Assembly: GCF_025698545.1 (NCBI RefSeq)
Contig: NC_068576.1
Span: 53,168,390 to 53,232,389 of the forward strand
DNA from: Gossypium raimondii
Taxonomy: Eukaryota > Streptophyta > Magnoliopsida > Malvales > Malvaceae
DNA: 64,000 nucleotides
Reading direction: 5' to 3'
Shown: positions 1,124 through 36,728 of the stretch, in pieces
How the letters are laid out: each line of letters begins with the position of its first letter
Numbering within the stretch: the stretch's first letter is position 1
Program-made: the position numbers and the translations under genes
Notes under the pieces: generated by a model
What the model saw: only the letters and a program-made list of their open reading frames with translations
Told to the model about the DNA's origin: nothing
The model's database searches: none

Positions 1124-3684
1124 CACTACACCAGAAAATGTTTTTAGCGGCTTTTTTTAGGCCTTTAGCGGCTCTTTTTAACGTCACTAAAGGCATTTGC
1201 GGCGCTTGAAGAAGCCGCTAACGACAACGTCGCTAACTTTTGCGGCGCTTACAGAAAAAAATGCCGCTAAAGAACATGTTCTTTAGCGGCGCCAAGAAAA
1301 TAAACGCCGCTAAAGATAATGTTCTTTAGCGGCGCTTAAGAAAAAACGCCGCTAAAGATCATGTTCTTTAGCGGCGCTTGAAAAACGCCGCTAAAGAACA
1401 TGATCTTTAGCGGCGCTTAAGAAGAAAACGCCGCTAAATATCATGTTCTTTAGCGGCGCTTAGGAAGAAAACGCTGTTTACATAAAATCAGAAATTTTGC
1501 GGCGTTTTCCACATAGCGCCGCTAAATCCAACCTTTAGTGGCGTTTCTACACTTGCGCCGCAAAAGCCATTCAATTCTCAAACAAAACTACACCATTTTG
1601 ACCAAATATTTAATAACTTTTTGCGGCGTTTTTGCTGAAAACGCCGCTAAATCTCACATCTTTTATTTATTTATTTATTTATTTATTGTATCTTTTATTA
1701 ATTGTATCTTTTAATTACTTTTGACAATGATAATACAATAATAATAAAATTTTATTAATTATTAAAACATTTGTACACTACTAAAAGTTTACTTTTATAT
1801 ACGTAATTAAATTTTAATATTTTAGACTAAATTGTTATAATATTTTCTTTTGCTTTTCTAGTTCTTATTTATTATTATACAAATACATAACGAATCAAGT
1901 ATTATATTTTTGGATTTAACCCATTTTGATATATTTTTAAAATATTAATTTATATTTATATTATTTTCATTTATATTAATCTAGAATATCTAAGATTAAA
2001 CACAAAAACGCTTAATTAATTGTTAAAAGCTAGCCCCAATCTGAAACCCTAAAATCATCAACCATATTATTTATCTGTAACCATCAAACCCCAAACTATA
2101 AACCACTATACTGTAAGCCTTAATTAATTGTAAATCCTAAACCCCAAACTATAAACCATTAACCCTAAACCTCAAACCCAAACCGTAAAACTTAAACCCT
2201 AAACCCGTCAATTAACCATTAAACATCAAACCACCAAACCATAAAATCCAAACCACAATATATCGTAGACATTAACCGTAGATCTTAAACCCTAAATTAA
2301 CCATAAACATTAAACCCGCAAACCACAAACAACAACCACCAAATCATAAACTCTAAACCCTAAAATTGGCCAAACCCCTAAAGTCTAAACCATAAGTCAT
2401 AAACCATAATCCTAAACCATATCTTTGGAAATTCAGGTGGCCAATGTGTTAGTTTAGTACATAACATATATTTTATATTATTTAATTATTTAATATAGGT
2501 GTGTTACAACGTGGCATGGATCCCAGTAAAATTAAAATGTTATTCTTTAATTAGTTTTCAAATAGTAGTATATATATATCTTTAAACCTTGAACATCAAA
2601 CCTTCAATCCCTAGCCCAAAATAAAAAATAGTATTTATACCATAAACCCTAAAACTCTATAGCAAAAATAAATCCTAAAATAATGGAAAAATAAATTAAG
2701 TTTCTTGTGGCGTTTTTAATATAAAGCGCCACTAAAAGTTACTCTATAGTAGCGTTTCCAAATAAGCGCCGCTAATGAATCTATATGTGAAGCCGAAACG
2801 ATGCGTTTTGGTCAAATTTTTTGCGGCGCTTAAGAAGAAGCGCCACTAAAAGCTGATCTATAGCGGCGTTTATGGGTAAGCGCCACTAAAGGCGCTGTAG
2901 CTCAAGACGAAACGTTGAGTTTCGGTTTAAAATTTTTCGGCGTTTGTTAGTTAAACGCCACTATTTATGGGATATAGCGGCGTTTTCTGGTAAGCGCCAC
3001 TAATGCCTTTATACGTCAAACCCAAACGATACGTTTTGTTCAAAATATTTGCGGCGATTGAGGAATAGCGCCACGAAAAGCTGATATATAGCGGCGTTTT
3101 CAGCTAAGCGCCGTTAAAGGCGCTATAGCTCAAGACGAAACGTTGCGTTTCGGTTTCAAAAGTTTCGGCATTTTTCGTTTACGCGCCGCTAATAGCGGGC
3201 TATAGCGGCGTTTTACACAAGCGCCACTATTGGCTCTATGCCTCATTTCCAAACGCTGCGTTTTGATTCACATATTTTGTGGCGCTTGTACTATAGCGTT
3301 GCTAATTATGTGCTTCAGTGGCGTTTTTACAGAAGCGCCACTAATTGTACTATACCTCAATATTGTACGCTGCGTATTGTTTAACATTTTTTGCGGTGCT
3401 TACAGACAAACGCCGCTAATTGTGCTCTATAGTGGCGTTTTTATAATGCGCCGCTACTGCCACTATTCCCGAATATTAAACGATGCGTTTTGTCAGATTT
3501 ATTACGGCGTTTTTGTTTAAAAACGCCACTAATGATGCTCTTTTGCGGCGTTTTCCTAGAAGCGCCGCTATTGTGGGATCTTTACCGGTGTTTTAGGATT
3601 AACGCCGCGAATGCCTGATTTTTAGAGGCGTTTTACCTACAAATGCCACAAAAAATGCCGCTAAAGCCCTCTTTTGGTGTAGTG
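1124..3684. mobile_element. non-autonomous CACTA (En/Spm-like) DNA transposon
   Basis: The left end starts CACTACACCAGAAAA and the right end is the inverse of CACTACACCAAAAG, the classic CACTA terminal inverted repeat. Just inside both ends are dense subterminal arrays of a short GC-rich motif (TTTAGCGGCG and its inverse CGCCGCTAAA) spaced every 30-70 bp: about 1140-1660 on the left and 2700-3680 on the right. The middle is AT-rich and carries telomere-like AACCCTAAA units. No transposase (TNPA or TNPD) is encoded, so the element would depend on a partner. The 3-bp flanks (TAT on the left, CGT on the right) do not match, so no target duplication is visible; the ends may have been rearranged after insertion. 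ORFs inside (for example 3230-3520) are by-products of the repeat. Confidence 0.82.
2035..2420. repeat. degenerate telomere-like repeat (AACCCTAAA units)
   Basis: About 390 bp made largely of variants of the plant telomere unit CCCTAAA (AACCCTAAACC, CATAAACCCTAAA and similar), interrupted and diverged. It lies in the core of the CACTA element, so it is transposon cargo and not a true chromosome end. Confidence 0.6.
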
Positions 3685-4000
3685 CGTGGGATAAAGGGTT
3701 CAGGCTTATTGAATTGGAATGTGATAATACCTTGATAGTCGAGTTGCTTTTAGCTGGATGGCATGCCGATAATAAATTAGTGGAGTTACGCTTAGTATAT
3801 TCCGAGATATTTGAATGAAGTGGTTGATCATATAACAAAAGGTACTATAATTAGGCTCACAGTTCTACCATGGTTTGAGGAGCCACCATCCTCTGTGGTT
3901 AATTTATTGTCGGGCTGATTGCAATATTTCCATGTAAATTTAATTTGAGAGTTTGATATAATTATTTTGTGCTATCTTTTTTTTATCAAAAAAAAAATAA
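3685..4000 (+). pseudogene. 3' end of an L1-type LINE (RNase H tail plus poly-A)
   Basis: Directly after the CACTA right end, the plus strand reads a short RNase H-like segment (WDKGFRLIELECDN, then LIVELLLAGWHADNK). Plant LINE ORF2 proteins end with this kind of domain. Stops and frameshifts follow, then an A-rich tail at about 3986-3998. No matching domain half is found left of the CACTA element, so the copy was truncated or rearranged there. Confidence 0.5.
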
Positions 4001-4647
4001 TGTGTGTGGTTTTTTCTAAGCATTTTATTTATTTATTTTTATAAAGAGTATAAGGAAACTTAATTAATTTGATATCAACCAGAATAAAAAATTACTGATA
4101 TACCATCAGCAACTTAGACATACCAGACCAAACAAACAAATACCTCAATAAATACATAAAAGCCAAAGGAATTAAAACACAAAAATATGAACCACCATGT
4201 TCGATCATAAAACTCTCTTGACACCTGCTTCGGCTAAAGCTCCACAACCAAGGAGTACATCTTCCATCATTTCAAATAAATTGGAAGAACGTTCTTACTA
4301 TAAAATTTTGATTTAACAAAAAAATAATTAACAACTTGGAGAAATTTAATTGTCATGAATGTACTGTCTAAGCTTTTTGGATGTCGATATTAGTGATGGT
4401 ATTTTTTAGATCCCATCCTAAATATCATTGAATTCAATTGACTCGTCATGATCTTCTTATTTTTACAAAAGGGACAGTTGATTCAATAGTTGGGGTATGG
4501 AGTATTTTGAAATATTTCTATCAAATTTCAATGCTGCAATAAAATGTTGCTAAGATTTTTTTTGCACTGGCGTCTCAAATTAGGATATGGAATAGATTCA
4601 TCTCACTACTAGGTTTAAAAAGGGAGAGTGGATGGATTAAGGTTGGT

Positions 4648-26386: not shown

Positions 26387-28892
26387 TGTACAGTCCACAT
26401 TTTGCCCGGGCCCAGTACCCAAAACAAAGACCCAAAACCACCAAAAAAATTAATTAAAAATTAAACCCAAAAACCCGAAGCCCAACAAAATAAGCCCCAA
26501 ATAGCCCGAATCATTACAGAAGGCCAGCCGTACCCCGAACCTTAGTTCCCTTCTGCCACCGCCGTTCGTCATGTCCCATCCGCCCCTCCTCTCTGCCTCT
26601 GTAGTCCGCCATCAAACACCTGCAAACAAGCAAAGAAGGGACAACAACAACAGTAGAAAGTAATACTACAATCGGCTATAAAAGCCGAAGCAAAATGTAA
26701 CTTCGGGTTCTTCTAAACACATGAATATTCAAAATAAAAAGAACAAGTTTAAAAGTGATTGTTTTTTTTCTTTTTTTTTCCGATTCGCTTTTTTTCTTTG
26801 GATACATTTTTCATTCTTTTTATCTTTTTTATATATACGAAATAAATAGATTAAAAAAGGAAAAAAGAAAGTACCTAGAATCGCCCCGCGAATCCCATCG
26901 TCGGAGACTTTTTTGGTCGCCGAAATCGGGCCGAGAGAGTGCGTGAGGGAACCTTTTTCCTTCGACCTTCCAGCCAAGAAGGGTAGGCTTTTGCACGTGT
27001 CTGGAACGGGGTTTTAAAAACCTGACTTTTGGGTGCCTCTGGCCACTGCCCACGACGGGGCCGACAACCGAAAGCCCTAGGCCGAGAAGGGGAGTATTTG
27101 AGAGAAAATGGGAGGTTTTTTAAAAAAAAATTTAAAGAGGACTGCAGAAATGAATTTTTTTAAAGAAATTTTGGTTTAAGTAGAGGTGCAAAACAGCGTC
27201 GTTTGGGCTAGGGTTATCAGACTCCAAAACGATGCCGTTTAACTCTGACTCGCGCGCAACCTAACCCGCTTCAGGGGGATCCGCATGTTTTCTAGCGTAT
27301 GGGTTATTTGCGCAATTAACCCTTCTGATTTTTCGGCCTGCTTCAATTTAATACCTTTTTTTAAATTTCTTCACCTACTTTTACTTTATTTTCAAATTGG
27401 TCCTTGGACCATTTGAGGAGACAGACACCTGAAACGGTGCCGTTTTCGATGACCCGAAACTCGACTTGGTTTCCAGATGGGATCCACACGTTTAATTACC
27501 GTCCTGGTCCTTCTGGTTTTAAATGGTTTACAATTTGGTCCTGTTTCTTGTTTCTTTTAGTTTTCTCCTATGATTTTGGTTTTATCTTTTTTTTTTTAAA
27601 TCCCTAGTAGTTTTTCTTTACTTATAATTTATACCCCTAATGTCATTTTCAATCCTTTTTTGCAAACTGTTTTGTCCATTAGTTATTTTGTCTCATTTCT
27701 TCATTTATTTGTTAGATCTTCAACCTTATTTAATAATTAAAGTTCATTTATTTGTATTCTTTTTATGTATATTTGTATTTTTTATTATTTATTTATATAT
27801 TTTATTACAAATTGTATCCTTAATTCCATTCATGTTTTAATTTGGTTCTTTATTTTAGATATTTTATAAATTATCCTCCCTATATTTATTTATGAATTTG
27901 TTACTTTGTCTTTATTTTTATTTATTGATATAGTCCTTTATGTGCATGCGTTATTGCCATTGCCATTATTATTGTTTATTTTATTTATTTTTATTGTTCA
28001 TATTAACGTCGAAATATTCTCGTAAATTGTTTTTATTATTGTCATTTATTGATGCGAAATTTATTCATATATCAAATTTAACATTACATCAATTTTTATC
28101 TAAATTCGTAAAAAAAAGAAAGAAAATTTTGAAAACAAAGGCAATACGTATTTGGGATCTTCGAGAGGATTGAGCCCTAACGTGTTGAGTTCTAATTTTC
28201 TTCGTTGAATTTAAGTAATTGAGAATGCTCTTTAATCAAAAAACATAAATAAAGAACTCATTGTCGGGAATTCAATACGCTATGTCCTAACGCATTGGAT
28301 ATGACACGTTATTTTCTCGAGATGGGGATTTTTCTAAAAAATAATAAAGACAATATTCAATGTTTAGAATTTTGAGAAATTGTGCCCTAACGTATTGGGC
28401 CACGATTTCTTCATCTGACTTAAACAATTGAATATTCTTTTAAATTTTATTGTACAAGTTTTTTTGGACAAGCTCATTTTTTAGGAGGTGAAATATCATA
28501 CCCTAACTCATTGGGTATGACATTTTCTCTCTCTGAAATGAGAGGGCTTAATATGTAATTTGATTTATACAAGTTTTTAATACAAGGATCGTATTTCGAA
28601 TCTCTTCAAAGTTTCCAATTTTCGACACTAAGACACTAATTAATCAACAAAGTACCATTTTTGGGCGTTACGAGGGTGCTAATCCTTCCTCGTACATAAC
28701 CGACTCCCGAACTCGTTTTTCTAAATTTCGTGGACCAAAATCGTTGTTTTAATAAAATCAAATCGTTTATTAAAAAACCACTTTTCGAGGTGACCCGATC
28801 ACACCTCATCAAAAAAAGATTGGTGGACTCCTTTTTTTCGATTTCAAAATTAAAATCGACATGTTTTCGCAACAAAAAAATTGGTGTCAATA
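26387..28892 (-). mobile_element. solo LTR of the same family, copy 3 (older, inverted)
   Basis: On the plus strand it begins TGTACAGTCC and ends GGTGTCAATA; the last CA has become TA. The 5-bp flanks CATGG (26382-26386) and GATGG (28893-28897) differ at one base, so the duplication is worn. It carries three AAACGNYGYCGTTT-type palindromes (27191, 27227, 27432), four spaced CCTAACNNATTGG motifs (28175, 28285, 28385, 28501) and the conserved terminal 300 bp. More differences from copies 1 and 2 in the shared end region suggest greater age. Confidence 0.8.
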
Positions 28893-29718
28893 GATGGAAT
28901 AGTAAAACGTAAAAAAGAAAAAAAATGAAATGACGGTGCCCACTGTGCTTTTAAGATGTTTTTTTTTCCATTTCATTTTACACCATGTTTGGTTCGGTGG
29001 GCCCCACTTAAGCCTCCTTTATTCCATTGTTTGGTTCATGGTAATGCTATTACGGGTGTAATACATTACTGCCCTAATCGGTGAAATCCACCGATTTCTA
29101 ATCCGTCCCTTTTGCTCAGTTTAGGTGCTGCTTCACTTTACCCTCCCTGTTTTACCCTCTGCCTCTTCTGTTCCCCTTTGCCTATTCTGTCGATTTGCTC
29201 CCTTCCTTCCTTCTACCTTCTGCCTTCTACCTTCTGTCGATTTGCCCTAAGAGCACGTTTCGCCCGATTTGCTCTATCTGTTTCTTTTCTTTTCTTTTCT
29301 GTCGATTTGTTCCCTCTGTTTCTTACAGTTTCTGCCGATTTGCTCAGTTTCAACCGATTTGCGTCTTCTGTTTCTTTTCTTTTTCTTTACAACATTACGG
29401 TTGCCCTTCTCAACCAGTCAACCTGTTGTAAGTTTGAGACCATTTCCATAAGGATAAGATGGCAGAGAGACAATGACACTATGTTCTAAGTTGAAACTAG
29501 CTTAGAACTAGTGCAATTGCCTGTGTTTTAGTTGTTTTTTTTTGTCTCATGTTTGTGCCTCTTGATAAATTTTCATTCTGTCCTCTTCTTCCCCTCTCAC
29601 TAAGACAATCTTCCTCTTGCCATTTGATTTCTTCTCTTCCCGAACAGGAAATGATGTTGTGTCCCTAATATGTTTTGTCCCTTTGATGCCATCTTTTCTT
29701 GTCTTTGGCATGTAATAG

Positions 29719-30095
29719 GATCTGGGCGAATAGGCAATCTGCTGCTAGGTCAAAGGAAAGGAAGATGAGATATATAGCCGAGCTTGAGCGGAAAGTACAG
29801 ACACTTCAAACAGAAGCAACATCACTCTTTACCCAGCTTACTCTAGTACAGGTAGTTTCATCCGCCCAGCACCTTCTACTCTTTTGTTTCCTATACCAGT
29901 GTCCAGATTCAAGGGTCCGTTTTCATTTTCTTTTACTTTTATATTTCTTTTCTTTTATTCATTTAGATCTAATTATTCATTTGATTCTTCTCATGGTAAC
30001 TTGTGAGCAGAGAGACACCAATGGTTTGACTGCTGAAAATAGTGAGTTGAAACTGCGCTTGCAAGCAATGGAGCAACAAGTTCACTTGCAAGACG
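29719..30095 (+). pseudogene. captured bZIP gene fragment (two exons with intron)
   Basis: Exon A, 29719-29851 (tgtaatag|G...ACAG|gtagtt), encodes [19 protein letters not shown] and the start of the leucine zipper. Exon B, 30011-30095 (gagcag|AG...GACG|gtgagc), encodes [20 protein letters not shown]. Basic region (N-x7-R) and zipper match group I plant bZIPs of the RF2a/VIP1/RSG kind. The N-terminal exon and the exon continuing the zipper are missing, so no complete protein can be made. Both splice sites of the retained intron are intact, so capture was at DNA level, not through mRNA. It lies inside the 28981-33211 element. Confidence 0.82.
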
Positions 30096-31277
30096 GTGAG
30101 CGCCTCTCAAAAACTTTTCGGTTAAACCAATATCCTTGCTTTATTGATCTATTATTATTATCATTATTATTAATGGAAAGACATTATGGACTGTATGATA
30201 TCTATTGATGGTTTGAAAGATTTTACATGTGATAATTTGGTTGAATGGGGACTGATATAGTAAATTAGATTGAAGCTGCAATGAGTTTGATATGCGTCCT
30301 TCACATATACTTACCGTTCTAGACATTTAATAGCAGGGGTGCTGTGTGTATGAAGGCAGGGAGAGATATCTGCACCTTAGTCTTTATTGTCATAAGATAG
30401 AGCTGGGGTTGGTCCAAATACTGGTACAATTGGCATCTGGTTCCTGAGATGCTACCCATTGTTTCAATGTCCTGTTATTTTGTCTTAAGGTCATTATACA
30501 CTGGTATGGATCTTATACTTTAGCAAAGAAATAGTATTTCTGGGAATTTCTTACTGCTAATTTATCATCATAAGAGTGCAATATGTTGTTTCTCAGACTT
30601 GAAAATGCTTTAGAAGAAACAATTTTACCCTTAGGAGATACAGCATTTGATCATATGTTAGAAAATGTCCTTTGGTGATAGGATTTTCAGTGCTGTTATA
30701 AGCGATAATTGAATGCTAGGTTTATATATATGTTAATAGTACTGGTGACCCTACTTTATAAACGCTTGCCTATGTTAAAGAAAATATAATATTGTTATGC
30801 TGAATTAAAGTGGTTCTCAACTGGTTAGGTCGATCATGTGGTCGTATGCTGTAAAAATATAGTGTAACTAATTATATGTGGGATGATGAAGGAGCTGCAA
30901 TATGTGTTTTCAACTTTCTTATGCAATTTTAGCTAATTTCTAAACATTTTCTCTCAAAGAAGTAGAATTCTGTTTATTGATCATTAGATTGATCTTTCGG
31001 CATATAAACTGTTACATAATTGTGCTTCTATTGCCTAATTGGAAAATTTTGAAACAAGGATAAGTTACTCTAGTCCATCGTAAAGTTATAAAATTGCGAC
31101 TGCTGTTGTTGTTGTCAATAGTTGTAGTATAATATGCAGTATATATCTAATAATTTGTGTTTTGGTAGGTTCATACAGACATATGGAACACACATAATAG
31201 TCGGCATGGCTATCGGTGGTCAAGATTTAATGTGTCAGGCAAAATTCTTCCTCTACAATTCCTACATCCGAGCTTAG

Positions 31278-31995
31278 AGGGTATTTGGAGGACCTCGAAG
31301 ATGTTATGTTTTCAGATGGGAAAAGCCCTTCATTAATACAGAGAAAGTCAAGAGATGGCGAACAAAAAGTATAAGCACCTCATTTATATTTAAGGGCCCT
31401 TTCTTCTTTTGTTCGGTAAACACTGATATTTTTACTAAATGCTGTATATTTATGTAGGTGCCCGACATCTTTAACCGTATTTTGCAGTCAAGCGCCATGC
31501 AGTTGGCCAGCATTGCAGAAACATTGAGCGTTCGGCACATTGAGGTATTAAGCCATTGAGGGCTTGGTGGTGATTGGCAAAACCCCTTTGCTTTCGAATC
31601 CCTTGTCCTCTGTCTCTATGGTTTTCTGATTCTAGTTCTTTATTCTTAAAAATCAGATCTAAATTTGTTTATTGTGATCGCGATTCTGTTCGTTCTAAAT
31701 AACTTTCTCATTGACAAAGAAAGTATGTGTTCCATAAAGAACTGCAAAAAGTTCAAAAACAAAGAAAGTAGTGTTAAACCACTAATGAACATGTCTAGAA
31801 GTGTGTATATGGTATATGCCCCATGTTTTGAAGTCTTTACTCTTTAGCATGTCTAAGAGAATGTGTATAGTATTTGCATGTTGAATTTTATATAAGCAAA
31901 TTAAGTGGTCAGTTTACTAATGCAGGGAAGAAGCAGATGAGTTGTGCCGAACGCTGGAGGAGAAAGAGGACAGTTCATGTACTGCCTCAAATTAG
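31278..31995 (+). pseudogene. captured exon-like fragments of an unidentified gene
   Basis: Three coding-looking blocks have splice borders: 31278-31368 (reads YLEDLEDVMFSDGKSPSLIQ, ends before gtataa), 31458-31544 (tgtag|GTG; reads VPDIFNRILQSSAMQLASIA; ends GAG|gtatta) and 31926-31995 (tgcag|GG; one frame reads EEADELCRTLEEKEDSS and stops). The phases of the last two blocks do not join cleanly, so the model is uncertain. I do not recognise the family. The blocks lie in the same transposon as the bZIP exons and may come from the same or another donor gene. Confidence 0.4.
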
Positions 31996-32687
31996 TTTTC
32001 TTGTATCACAATATAATGAAGCTTGCTAAACAAGTTATGCGTGCAAATTAGTTGGAGAGGTTTTTTGTTAGGTCATGTAAGACTTTTGTTGGTTAAACTA
32101 TTAGAAATTCAAGAGCAAATTGGGTCCTCTAATATAAAAATGAGCACTTTAGTCCTTATATAATTCGTTTTGAAGCAAACAAGTAACTTTTGAATAGTTT
32201 TAATATTTTTCTTATCTAAATGCTCGTGGAACAAATTGAAAATAAACATGTCTAAAAGTTTAATCATAAAAAATCCATCTTTCTACAAACAAAATATAAC
32301 AAAAAAAAAGTTAAAATGAACGAAGAAAACAACATTGAAGACCAAAATTGCTGCAAGTCAAATCTAGAAACAAAAATGAAATTGAGAAAATAAAATTTAC
32401 GTTCTAAATTTTAGAATTCGAAATTGTTGATGCACAAACAATAGAATCCTAATTTGTCAATAGACAGAAAATCACTGATGAGATGAGTTGAAAGGTGCTT
32501 TACGATCGGAAATGGAATACATAATTGGGAATATGAAGAAAAACCCTAATTCATTATGTTGTTGAGTAAATTTAACTTGGATTGCTGATGGTAAAGTAAC
32601 AATCATAAAATCATTATTCAAAGTCAAGTTCAAATATTTTAATATTTGATAGAAGAAATTGATGAAGTTTGTTGATACAATCATAAG

Positions 32688-33000
32688 AATTTTATTAAAT
32701 TATATATTTTGTTAAATTATATTTAATAATAATTATTTTAAATTATATTTTATAGTATTATATATTATGATTTTAGTAAATTCATATAAGAATATTTAAT
32801 ACTAAAAATTTTATTAAATTATATATTTTGTTAAATTATATTTAATAATAATTGTTTTAATTATATTTTATAATATTATATATTATAATTTTAGTAAATT
32901 CATATATTTTATTAAATTATATATTTTTATTAAATTATATTTAATAATAATTATGTTAAAATATGATTAAATTATTTATTATTTATATTAATAATCTTAT
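32688..33000. repeat. AT-rich tandem repeat, about 120-bp unit
   Basis: A unit starting AATTTTATTAAATTATAT begins at 32688 and recurs at about 32807 with few changes; a third partial copy begins near 32905. It lies inside the right part of the Pack-type element. Confidence 0.75.
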
Positions 33001-33214
33001 TAAAATTTAATAACAATAACAATAATCATTTGCCTAAATAAATTTATGCTAAGGGTATTTTAGTTATTTTAGTTTTTTTCATTATGCTATTACACCTCCA
33101 TTCCATTCAACCAAACACAAGATTACTATTACGCCTCTATTCCATTACATTCAACCAAACAATTGATTTGCTATTACACCTCTATTCTAATACAGCGAAC
33201 CAAACGTGCTATTA

Positions 33215-34804
33215 GACTTTCAAGTTTTAAACGTAAAAGGAATTCTCTTCCTCTGTTTGCTCTCACCGCCGCCCATGGGAAAAGACTCGGCGTCGCCGTG
33301 CTCCGCAGCGCCAGAGCTCCAACCGGCCTAAATAAACACTCTGCGGCATTCCTCCCAAACTCCCCATCTCGATTCTAGGCTTACTTTTTCGAAAATTAGT
33401 CCCAAAAATTGTTGATCTAAGTTTTATGCTTGAAGTATACCTTCTCCAATCTCCACTTCTAGCCATCCGATTAGCCTGATTTTAGAGTATGTTGTTCCTC
33501 GTCCTACTCAATCGCTTTTCACCGTTTGGATTTTTGAAAGAAAGCTCTGAACCCTTCTTTTTCTTTTAAACTTGAATCTGAGTTTTTTGTGTTGTTGCGA
33601 TTATATATATTTTTGGCTTTTTTTGTTATTTGGTTGAGGGAGGACTTTTTTTTTTAATTCTTGCTGTTAACCGCTTAGGGGTTTGATTTAGGGGGGTTTT
33701 CTAACCGGTGGTGGATGGGATGTGTCGTCAGGGGTGGTTGGGGTTTAGGTGCACCCCAGGGTTGCGGAGTTAGTGGCCATGGGCGGTGCAATAGTAGGTT
33801 GGTGCTGCCATGGCAGAGGGTTGGTAGTAGTTTATAGGGGCTGGCGGCTAGGGTTTGACTAGCACCTTCAGGTTGCCATGTATGGGATTCAAACGGGCCC
33901 GATGTGTTGCAGGCCCAAGTTTGAGATAAATGCTGATACTAATACTGGTAGACGAAGTTATAAAAAATAAAAAAGAAAGCTATATAATAAAATATAGATA
34001 AATACGGATAATATAAGAGAATAAATTATATTAGATAATTTTAAAATTAATTTTAATTTTTTCTTTGCTTCTAAATCGTCTTTTAGTCTTTTAGTTTTAT
34101 GCTGTCAATTTTTTTTAATTCTTTTAGTTTCGAGGCAGGTAATTATTTCTCATTTCTCATTTTCTTTTAATTTTTAATCAAAATCCAAAATTTGATGACA
34201 TCTCCAGTGGTGTTTATAATTTCTCAAATTTCGATTTTTACTAATATTTTTCTAGATTTTTAATGGTTGGTTTCAGTTTTTCTATTTTCATTTTTTGCTT
34301 ATGATTTTTTCAGCTTTTTAATATTTTCTAGATTTTTAATGGTTTGTTTCAGTTTTTCTATTTTGTTGTTTTAAATTAGTAATTGATAATAAAATTTAAT
34401 TTAATATTTTAAAAATAATAAAATATATTTTTACTCTTGTAAAATTTAATTCTACCTAAAACAATTTCGAACCTCGCCCTAGATTGAAGTATTTTTAAAA
34501 TTACTTTATTTTTGGTTTTTTCTCACATAGTTTGAACGCTTCTTTTCCCAAACTTTTAAATAAATTAAATTAAATTAAATAGAGATGATGATATTGTAAA
34601 ATAATATTTGTATTTTATTAAAAATTAATGGTGTGATATTATTTTATTAGTTAGTAAGGATGAAAGCAAAAGATCCCTTTTTGCCATATTCCACAAATCA
34701 CAAACAGCTCATTCTTGGTCTTTTGTGACGTATTTCTTGATATATGCCTCCATCTGCCCACCTAGATTGTTATTCGTTAACTAGTTAGCTCCCTTTTTCA
34801 TTTC
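33215..34804. other. intergenic region upstream of the P450
   Basis: 33240-33480 has gene-like composition, with a small frame from 33275 (MGKDSASPCSAAPELQPA, then stop) next to a pyrimidine-rich leader; it may be an orphaned first exon, but no partner exon was found. 33700-33900 is GC-rich but broken in all frames. 33950-34680 is AT-rich. Confidence 0.4.
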
Positions 34805-36728
34805 ATGGCTCTCCTTTTCACCTTTGTTATTGCCTCTTCAATTTTGTGGTTAACATGGATCTACCTTAAATCCAAGAAGGGGAAGCCGCCACCCCCACCA
34901 GGCCCTCTAGGCCTCCCCTTAGTGGGAAACCTTCCCTTCCTTCGTCCTGACCTTCACTCCTACTTCTCTGAACTAGCTCACATCTACGGTCCAGTCGTGA
35001 AACTCCAGCTTGGCAGCAAGCTTGCGATCCTGATAACCTCCTCATCCACGGCTCGAGAAGTTCTTAAAGACCAAGACATCGCGTTTGCTAACCGTGATGT
35101 GCCTGTGGTTGCCAAGGTTCTAACCGGCGGCCGTGATATAGTTTGGAACCCCTATGGCCCGGAATGGAGAATGTTAAGAAAAGTATGCGTTATCAAGATG
35201 CTTAGCAATGCTACTTTGGATAAAGTATATAGTCTTCGCCGTCAAGAAGTACGAGAAACTTTAGGTTATTTATATAGTAAGGCCGGTTCGCCTGTAAACG
35301 TGGGAGAGCAGATGTTTTTAACTATCTTGAATGTGTTGACCAATATGTTATGGGGCGGGTCCATGGAAGGGGAGGCCAGGGCGAGCCTTGGTGCAGAGTT
35401 CAGGCAAGTCATCTCAGAAGTAACAGAACTTTTGGGTCTACCTAATGTTTCGGATTTCTTCCCGGCGTTGGCCCCTCTTGATTTGCAAGGTGCAGTGAAA
35501 CGTATCCGAAAGCCAGCGGAGAAGTTGGACGCAATTATTGATAAGATAATCAATCAAAGGTTGGAGGAGAAGCAAAGTGGGCACACAGTAGAGGAATTCA
35601 AGGACTTTCTACAATTCCTATTAAAGTTGAAAGATGAGGATGATTCCAAGACCCCAATGACCATGACTCATATCAAAGCCTTGCTACTGGTGAGTCTTCT
35701 TTGATTCTTTTTAATTATTATTTGCAATGGTATTATTATTAATATTTTACAGAATTGATTTTGGTACCACCATGAGCACACAGATAGTTTACAAAGTGAC
35801 TTCTAAAAACAGTTCATACAAAGAAAGGTTTTAATTAGATGCGTAAAAAAGAATTTAATAGGTGGGCCTACATGACTGATCCACCAGACTATTCATCGTG
35901 GTCTCTGCCAAAAAACCAAAAAACTAGAAAAATATCTCTTTGGCATTATTATTGGTTCTCAAATGGATTCCCCGTCGTCCAGGAGTCGGTAATTATTATC
36001 CTTTGTGTTCCATCATGGCCCCATTGAATTATAAAAACAATGATGAAATTGAATTCCAAATTTGCCTTGGTAACTTTGGTTATATTATATTTATATTGAA
36101 ACAGGATATGGTGGTGGGAGGATCAGACACATCATCCAACTCAATTGAGTTTACAATGGCTGAAATCATCAACAAACCAGAAGTAATGAGAAAAGCACAG
36201 CAAGAACTTGATGAAATAGTGGGCAAAGATAACTTCGTGGAAGAATCCCACATTCACAAATTGCCATATCTCCTTGCAGTTATGAAAGAGTCATTGCGTC
36301 TGCACCCGGTTTTACCACTCCTAGTCCCTCATTGTCCTAGTGAACCCAGCACCGTAGGTGGCTACGCCATCCCTAAGGGTTCAAGGGTGTTCGTCAATGC
36401 TTGGGCAATTCACAGAGACCCTTCTATCTGGGAAAACCCATTGGAGTTCAACCCTGACAGGTTTTTGAACAGCCAATGGGATTTCAGTGGGAGTGATTTC
36501 AGATATTTTCCATTCGGGTCTGGCCGAAGAATCTGTGCTGGAATAGCTATGGCTGAGAGGATGGTGTTGTATTCGGTTGCCTCACTGTTGCATTCTTTTG
36601 ACTGGCAAGTGCCGGGGGGTGAGAAGTTAGATCTTTCTGAAAAGTTTGGGATTGTTTTGAAGTTACAGAATCCACTTGTCGCAATTCCCACACCAAGGTT
36701 ATCAGATCCAGCTCTTTACCAGCCATAG
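34805..36728 (+). CDS. cytochrome P450, CYP706 family
   Basis: Two exons, 34805-35689 and 36105-36728 (CTG|gtgagt...aacag|GAT), encode 502 aa, full length for a class II P450. An N-terminal membrane anchor (about 1-22) and a proline hinge, PPPPPGPLGLPLVGN, place it on the ER surface. The I-helix motif is GGSDTS (300-305), K-helix ExxR E357-R360, PDRF at 412-415, and the heme loop FPFGSGRRICAG (430-441) with C439 as thiolate ligand. The single phase-0 intron just before the I-helix is common in A-type plant P450s. The C-terminal part (RMVLYSVASLLHSFDW, SEKFGIVLKLQNPLVAIP) fits CYP706. Cotton CYP706B1 hydroxylates delta-cadinene in the gossypol pathway, but this protein looks closer to the CYP706A/C side. 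The substrate is unknown; terpenoids are a fair guess. Confidence 0.9.

Follow-up and report, generated by a model that had tools for sequence, protein, structure and literature searches.

The window, as we call the whole 64,000-nucleotide stretch of Gossypium raimondii DNA analysed here, raises the question of how two bZIP exons came to lie between related inverted ends flanked on both sides by TTA. An earlier note, made from the letters alone, had read this segment as a Harbinger-like Pack element that captured DNA from a bZIP gene and possibly from a second gene. Our analysis bears out the core of that reading and extends it. Specifically, the 4.2-kb segment 28981-33211 is very probably, all parts of the explanation taken together, a non-autonomous Pack-type PIF/Harbinger element carrying bZIP, MACPF and HISN2 pieces. 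Its kind is already known under the name Pack-PIF, of which it is an additional member. Table 1 reports the coordinates of its features.

Table 1. Features of the element, in positions of the window; "element" positions are counted along the element itself
Feature	Position	Strand	Remark
Left target-site duplication, TTA	28978..28980	.	
Left terminal inverted repeat (TIR), CACCATGTTTGGTTCG	28981..28996	+	32-bp internal deletion compared with the longest relatives, e.g. L030
Left arm	28981..29421	+	element 1-441; element 14-447 recurs near relatives' left ends (98% over 231 bp in L016)
Junction 1, left arm/bZIP	29422..29424	.	CCT common to both parents (3-bp microhomology)
bZIP piece	29422..30736	+	element 442-1756; part of intron 1, exon 2, intron 2, exon 3, part of intron 3
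bZIP exon 2	29719..29851	+	basic region, zipper start; splice sites intact
bZIP exon 3	30011..30095	+	zipper; splice sites intact
Junction 2, bZIP/MACPF	30735..30736	.	AA common to both parents
MACPF piece	30735..31529	+	element 1755-2549; exons about 31169-31368 and 31458-31529 (by eye)
HISN2 piece, internally deleted	31540..32679	+	element 2560-3699; end of exon 2, truncated exon 5, 3' flank
Right arm	32680..33211	+	element 3700-4231; AT-rich repeats and terminal region
Right terminal inverted repeat, TAGCACGTTTGGTTCG on the minus strand	33196..33211	-	
Right target-site duplication, TTA	33212..33214	.	

Ends, target site and transposon family

A search of the genome contigs places the element on C12 of the 750.8-Mb genome. 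TTA is followed by CACCATGTTTGGTTCG at its start and CGAACCAAACGTGCTA is followed by TTA at its finish, while inverted TTTGGTT/AACCAAA words occupy the subterminal regions; ends, flanking triplets and words all lie where the earlier note had placed them. Thirteen of 16 positions are identical between the two 16-bp ends. Both are variants unmatched by the exact family motifs used for counting; on the right, TAGCACG stands in place of the family pattern's GGGCACG. In agreement with the claimed lack of a transposase, Pfam recognised none in the bZIP frame or in 10 other long frames, the shorter frames being judged by eye.

A search of the same genome for an empty site with joined flanks returned no spanning match among the best 40 of 2725 candidates, the left-flank dispersed repeat having filled the list; therefore, we infer the insertion from the target-site duplication and the ends alone. 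The repeat in question covers 28731-28893 of the window and recurs at 83-89% identity in at least 38 other places.

Family end motifs were defined by eye as TWA followed by CANCATGTTTGGTTGGGTGTATTGGC on the left and TWA followed by GGGCACGTTTGGTTCGCTGTATTGG on the right. Both end types are common to other copies: the exact motifs occur 268 and 218 times genome-wide, whereas neither reversed control occurs at all, and these counts are therefore far above chance. Pairing of listed left and right ends within 15 kb took in 100 of the 268 left and 96 of the 218 right ends (four listed C7 right ends were dropped, as the left ends considered reach as far as C6) and gave 26 pairings, none wrongly oriented, with a median length of 3.87 kb. 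The TTA/TAA duplications match in 25 of the 26, the sole mismatch being an outer pairing for which a fitting alternative exists. A search with the left arm, in addition, led to 29 other loci (L010-L038), 24 of which show a left end with at most one mismatch to the core motif, every time with TTA or TAA directly before it. At this threshold the left end is absent from L011, L021, L022, L032 and L033, and L021 has a right end only.

The superfamily assignment comes from a relative, L054 (C3:22925646-22932400, 6.75 kb, TTA duplication), whose paired family ends lie within C3:22925590-22932460. Between them lie a Myb/SANT-like gene (Myb_DNA-bind_3, E 2e-10) and DDE_Tnp_4 pieces; searched apart, these pieces gave Pfam E values of 1.2e-8 and 4.9e-4, of which the latter does not reach Pfam's cut-off. 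A DDE_Tnp_4 transposase and a Myb/SANT gene are the two genes of PIF/Harbinger elements. Since L054 has the family's ends and carries broken versions of both genes, we conclude that the family belongs to PIF/Harbinger, as the earlier note had proposed. L054 could represent the kind of element able to move the family, its own copy being broken, with transposase frames interrupted by stops. Among the sister elements, selected frames of L052 matched IFRD and fn3_6 weakly, short of Pfam's cut-offs, and L051, L053, L055 and L056 gave no Pfam match in the frames tried. L056 has a similar module pattern, with breakpoints at query 961, 1334 and about 1580; no donor was found for its modules, and it was left out of the donor tally.

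Other classes of element were compared on the same features. Mutator-type elements (Pack-MULEs) make a 9-bp target duplication, and Helitrons have neither TIRs nor a target-site duplication. The window element has TIRs with a 3-bp TTA duplication, in place of the 9-bp duplication and Mutator-type ends of the former and at variance with the latter. The 3-bp TTA/TAA duplication and the terminal inverted repeats common to the members are those of PIF/Harbinger, while the lack of its own transposase and the presence of host-gene pieces with fuller copies elsewhere (the C9 HISN2 copy being itself damaged) are those of a Pack-TYPE element.

Pieces of three host genes and their possible product

The interior is a mosaic of broken pieces from three unrelated host genes on three other chromosomes, namely C10, C3 and C9. 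Introns are kept in the captured pieces, which indicates that capture took place at the DNA level.

The first piece is 96.4% identical to C10:22161996-22163314. Its two intron-separated exons, reported earlier with intact splice sites, are indeed preceded by AG and followed by GT, and the frame 29687-30205 matches Pfam bZIP_1 (E 3.8e-8); the captured gene may belong to the RF2a/VIP1-like bZIPs of group I, as the earlier note had it. The genome search returned eight places including the window itself, six of which, besides C10, are shorter and 69-80% identical. The C10 donor has four bZIP exons, and its first and last exons, the last preceded by AG and ended by a stop, are without counterpart in the element. 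This agrees with the capture from a bZIP gene that had been proposed.

Preservation of the order, introns and splice sites of the two exons would also fit a bZIP gene decayed in its original place, with its other exons nearby. We rejected this reading, which is improbable in the extreme: a near-identical gene that has the missing exons lies on another chromosome, C10, the piece stops abruptly on both sides, against family and MACPF sequence respectively, and the entire stretch lies between TIRs with a TTA duplication. With other copies sharing both end types as well, neither of the two findings that would have overturned the earlier note was made. That the mosaic is an artefact of assembly is scarcely more credible, since a misjoined stretch of donor DNA would not depart from the donor at 44 of 1314 positions, as the bZIP piece does, and the right half of the mosaic is common to three other loci.

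The second piece is 95.2% identical to C3:1788853-1789664, part of a gene whose joined exons encode a MACPF domain (E 2.5e-14), and has a 2-bp frameshift deletion in its first exon. The third derives from HISN2, a gene of histidine synthesis, and lies in the element as sub-blocks 31540-31671, 31663-31716, 31722-31989 and 32015-32679. Three blocks match the C9 locus at 91.7, 96.6 and 89.0% identity, and the fourth, a small one, is common to the HISN2 copy on C1, C9 being deleted there. The second donor that had been thought possible is thus real as a further capture, but there are two further donors and not one; likewise, the second exon-like zone, 31270-32000, is gene-derived as claimed, but belongs in part to MACPF and in part to HISN2. 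Beyond it, C9 homology ends at element position 3699, and all six fetched members without HISN2 start matching the right arm at 3703-3708, so that the boundary between host and right-arm DNA is visible from both sides.

If transcribed, the element might give rise to a zipper fragment or to small RNAs against the bZIP donor, a speculative outcome. An exapted role of this kind, as a short bZIP zipper protein or as small RNAs acting on the donor gene, would fit the open frames and intact splice sites of both exons, as well as the lower number of donor differences in exons (4/216) than in introns (40/1098), figures for which the exon limits were set one or two bases wrong. We nevertheless consider such a role improbable. 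With two paralogues as outgroups, two of the four exon differences are donor-derived, and the two element-derived ones are both nonsynonymous and both in the zipper. Because of these two changes and the frameshifted MACPF exon, we see no sign of a selected product; the counts are small, and the sequence speaks mildly against a selected protein. Most likely, then, the window element makes none.

As for the neighbourhood, a cytochrome P450 gene with two long frames (p450, E 5.2e-33 and 6.3e-64) occupies 34781-36725, about 1.6 kb downstream of the element. An effect of the element on this gene, from 34781 on, is possible.

The HISN2 copies on C1 and C9

A protein search found 22 HISN2-bearing loci, 16 of which lie within 3 kb of a right-arm match; both searched exons are nearly whole only in C1 and C9. 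The C1 copy is carried by a family member, which extends from position 243 of locus L057 (C1:42881500-42888499) onward. Its HISN2 gene, at C1:42882653-42884913, has five exons with AG/GT splice sites and a 288-aa open frame, and the protein matches the solved chain 7bgm (E 1.5e-118). The triplets flanking this outer C1 element are TAA and CAA, one base different. A second family member with a TTA duplication (C1:42886236-42890514; L057 from 4737, L064 to 115) is nested in its right arm. The nested member carries a piece of an RNA-dependent RNA polymerase (RdRP) gene (E 8.9e-12).

Over the 7.5 kb fetched, the C9 locus (L065 and L059, C9:23629000-23636499) is free of the family TIR motif. Homology with C1 breaks off at L057 588 and 4430, the flanks beyond being unrelated. 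Because the locus is without transposon arms, C9 appears to be the original HISN2 site. It carries a 43-bp deletion covering the 5' splice site of exon 2, a loss of its own, given that C1 and the window's fragment both retain this sequence. Of 13 nonsynonymous differences between C1 and C9, five are C9-derived, one is C1-derived, three match neither and four are without an outgroup residue. Since C9 is damaged and the other loci among the 22 are incomplete, the one complete HISN2 copy that was found is carried by a transposon.

These observations, all from sequence comparison, are compatible with a tentative proposal, to which we give slightly less than even chances, namely that this Pack-PIF family moves whole working genes. 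A complete HISN2, with upstream region, five exons and 3' flank, would have been captured first and relocated to the transposon; C1 would be the only complete open copy, C9 being without its exon 2 5' splice site and altered at conserved residues, and the window element would be a shredded and re-chimerised descendant. If true, this would be a housekeeping histidine-synthesis gene whose function has passed to a transposon-borne copy, and this side result may outweigh the finding on the window element.

At five further loci (C1:35496604, C11:11603352, C3:38549786, C4:39955171 and C7:25377128) the match to HISN2 exon 2 ends at residue 73-74, and after another 5-8 bases the sequence matches the window element from 3048 to 3899-3918. 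These five form a truncated lineage that was amplified separately.

Order of capture and comparison with known elements

Three relatives, on C3 (C3a, L046), C4 (L050) and C5 (L049), are unbroken, as is the C3 donor, across the point at which the window element switches from bZIP to MACPF; their MACPF piece is longer (about 1.37 kb) and 93-97% identical to the donor. Continuity through this joint indicates that the bZIP capture is newer than the MACPF piece. An ancestor would therefore have held the MACPF and HISN2 pieces, the bZIP piece and another left arm joining later, in the lineage of the window copy. HISN2 probably preceded MACPF, being more widely spread, with 22 loci compared with at least four plus the donor for MACPF, a figure that comes from the best 40 of 2185 candidates. 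The genome search found the bZIP piece at no locus besides the window and the C10 donor. Its age, with two substitution rates, comes to 1.3 to 6.6 million years, a range too loose for use.

All together, the following course explains the data best. A PIF/Harbinger transposase made elsewhere, of the type whose broken version a relative encodes, would be able to move the window element's ends. The lineage probably captured the HISN2 locus first and then part of the MACPF gene, and in this form spread to at least four places. On the branch leading to the window copy, a left arm of another subfamily, together with the 1.3-kb C10 bZIP piece, took the place of the left half. Presumably the element then entered its present TTA site, which lies about 1.6 kb upstream of the P450 reading frame. 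It seems not to have spread since, its bZIP content being found only here and in the donor.

As to the mechanism, the joints suggest that the bZIP piece was most likely captured while a transposition gap was being repaired, by template switching where the two parents share 2-3 bp, although two microhomologies so short are common by chance. The main rival is provided by the model of Catoni and colleagues, told for maize Pack-PIF in PMC8903248, in which two neighbouring elements fuse and, together with the stretch that separates them, move as a single unit. The C1 element, in which one family member is nested in another, lends this model some support in the present family. Against it, neither bZIP joint shows an inner TIR remnant, one joint lies in the left arm and the other in a MACPF intron, each with 2-3 bp common to both parents, and the fetched C10, C3 and C9 donor loci are without a family TIR motif within 2 mismatches. 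We thus regard fusion as unlikely, though still the strongest competitor, and favour switching during repair.

Among known systems, rice Pack-MULEs carry chimeric, intron-containing gene pieces from several loci between their TIRs. The window element resembles them in exactly this respect, but in its ends and its 3-bp TWA duplication it follows PIF/Harbinger and not Mutator. Its right end, GGGCACGTTTGGTT, and the TWA target fit the PIF/Harbinger/Tourist type; unlike Tourist-like MITEs, however, it is several kilobases long and carries host-gene pieces. The GrTEdb description (PMC5467567) gives 435 PIF-Harbingers, found through transposase similarity. Our literature search returned no text naming Pack-PIF together with Gossypium, and the matches listed, as far as their available text goes, hold no report of the present family.

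The closest relatives in kind are the Pack-PIF elements, the Pack-TYPE PIF/Harbinger elements of maize and rice (Gisby and Catoni 2022, PMC8903248). In the available part of that paper, they share with the window element the TTA/TAA duplication, the TIRs, the lack of a transposase and the host-gene pieces, and some derive from more than one donor locus, with stepwise acquisition within a family. In the maize cluster described there, the elements are about 0.4-0.5 kb long and their captured pieces 163 and 58 bp. In contrast, the pieces in the window element, from another plant, measure 0.8 to 1.3 kb, retain introns and come from three donors, and its family has a median length of 3.87 kb over the 26 pairings. 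In conclusion, the locus documents the stepwise build-up of a three-gene chimera by a PIF/Harbinger element, and the order and joints of capture are readable because intermediate stages persist in the same genome.
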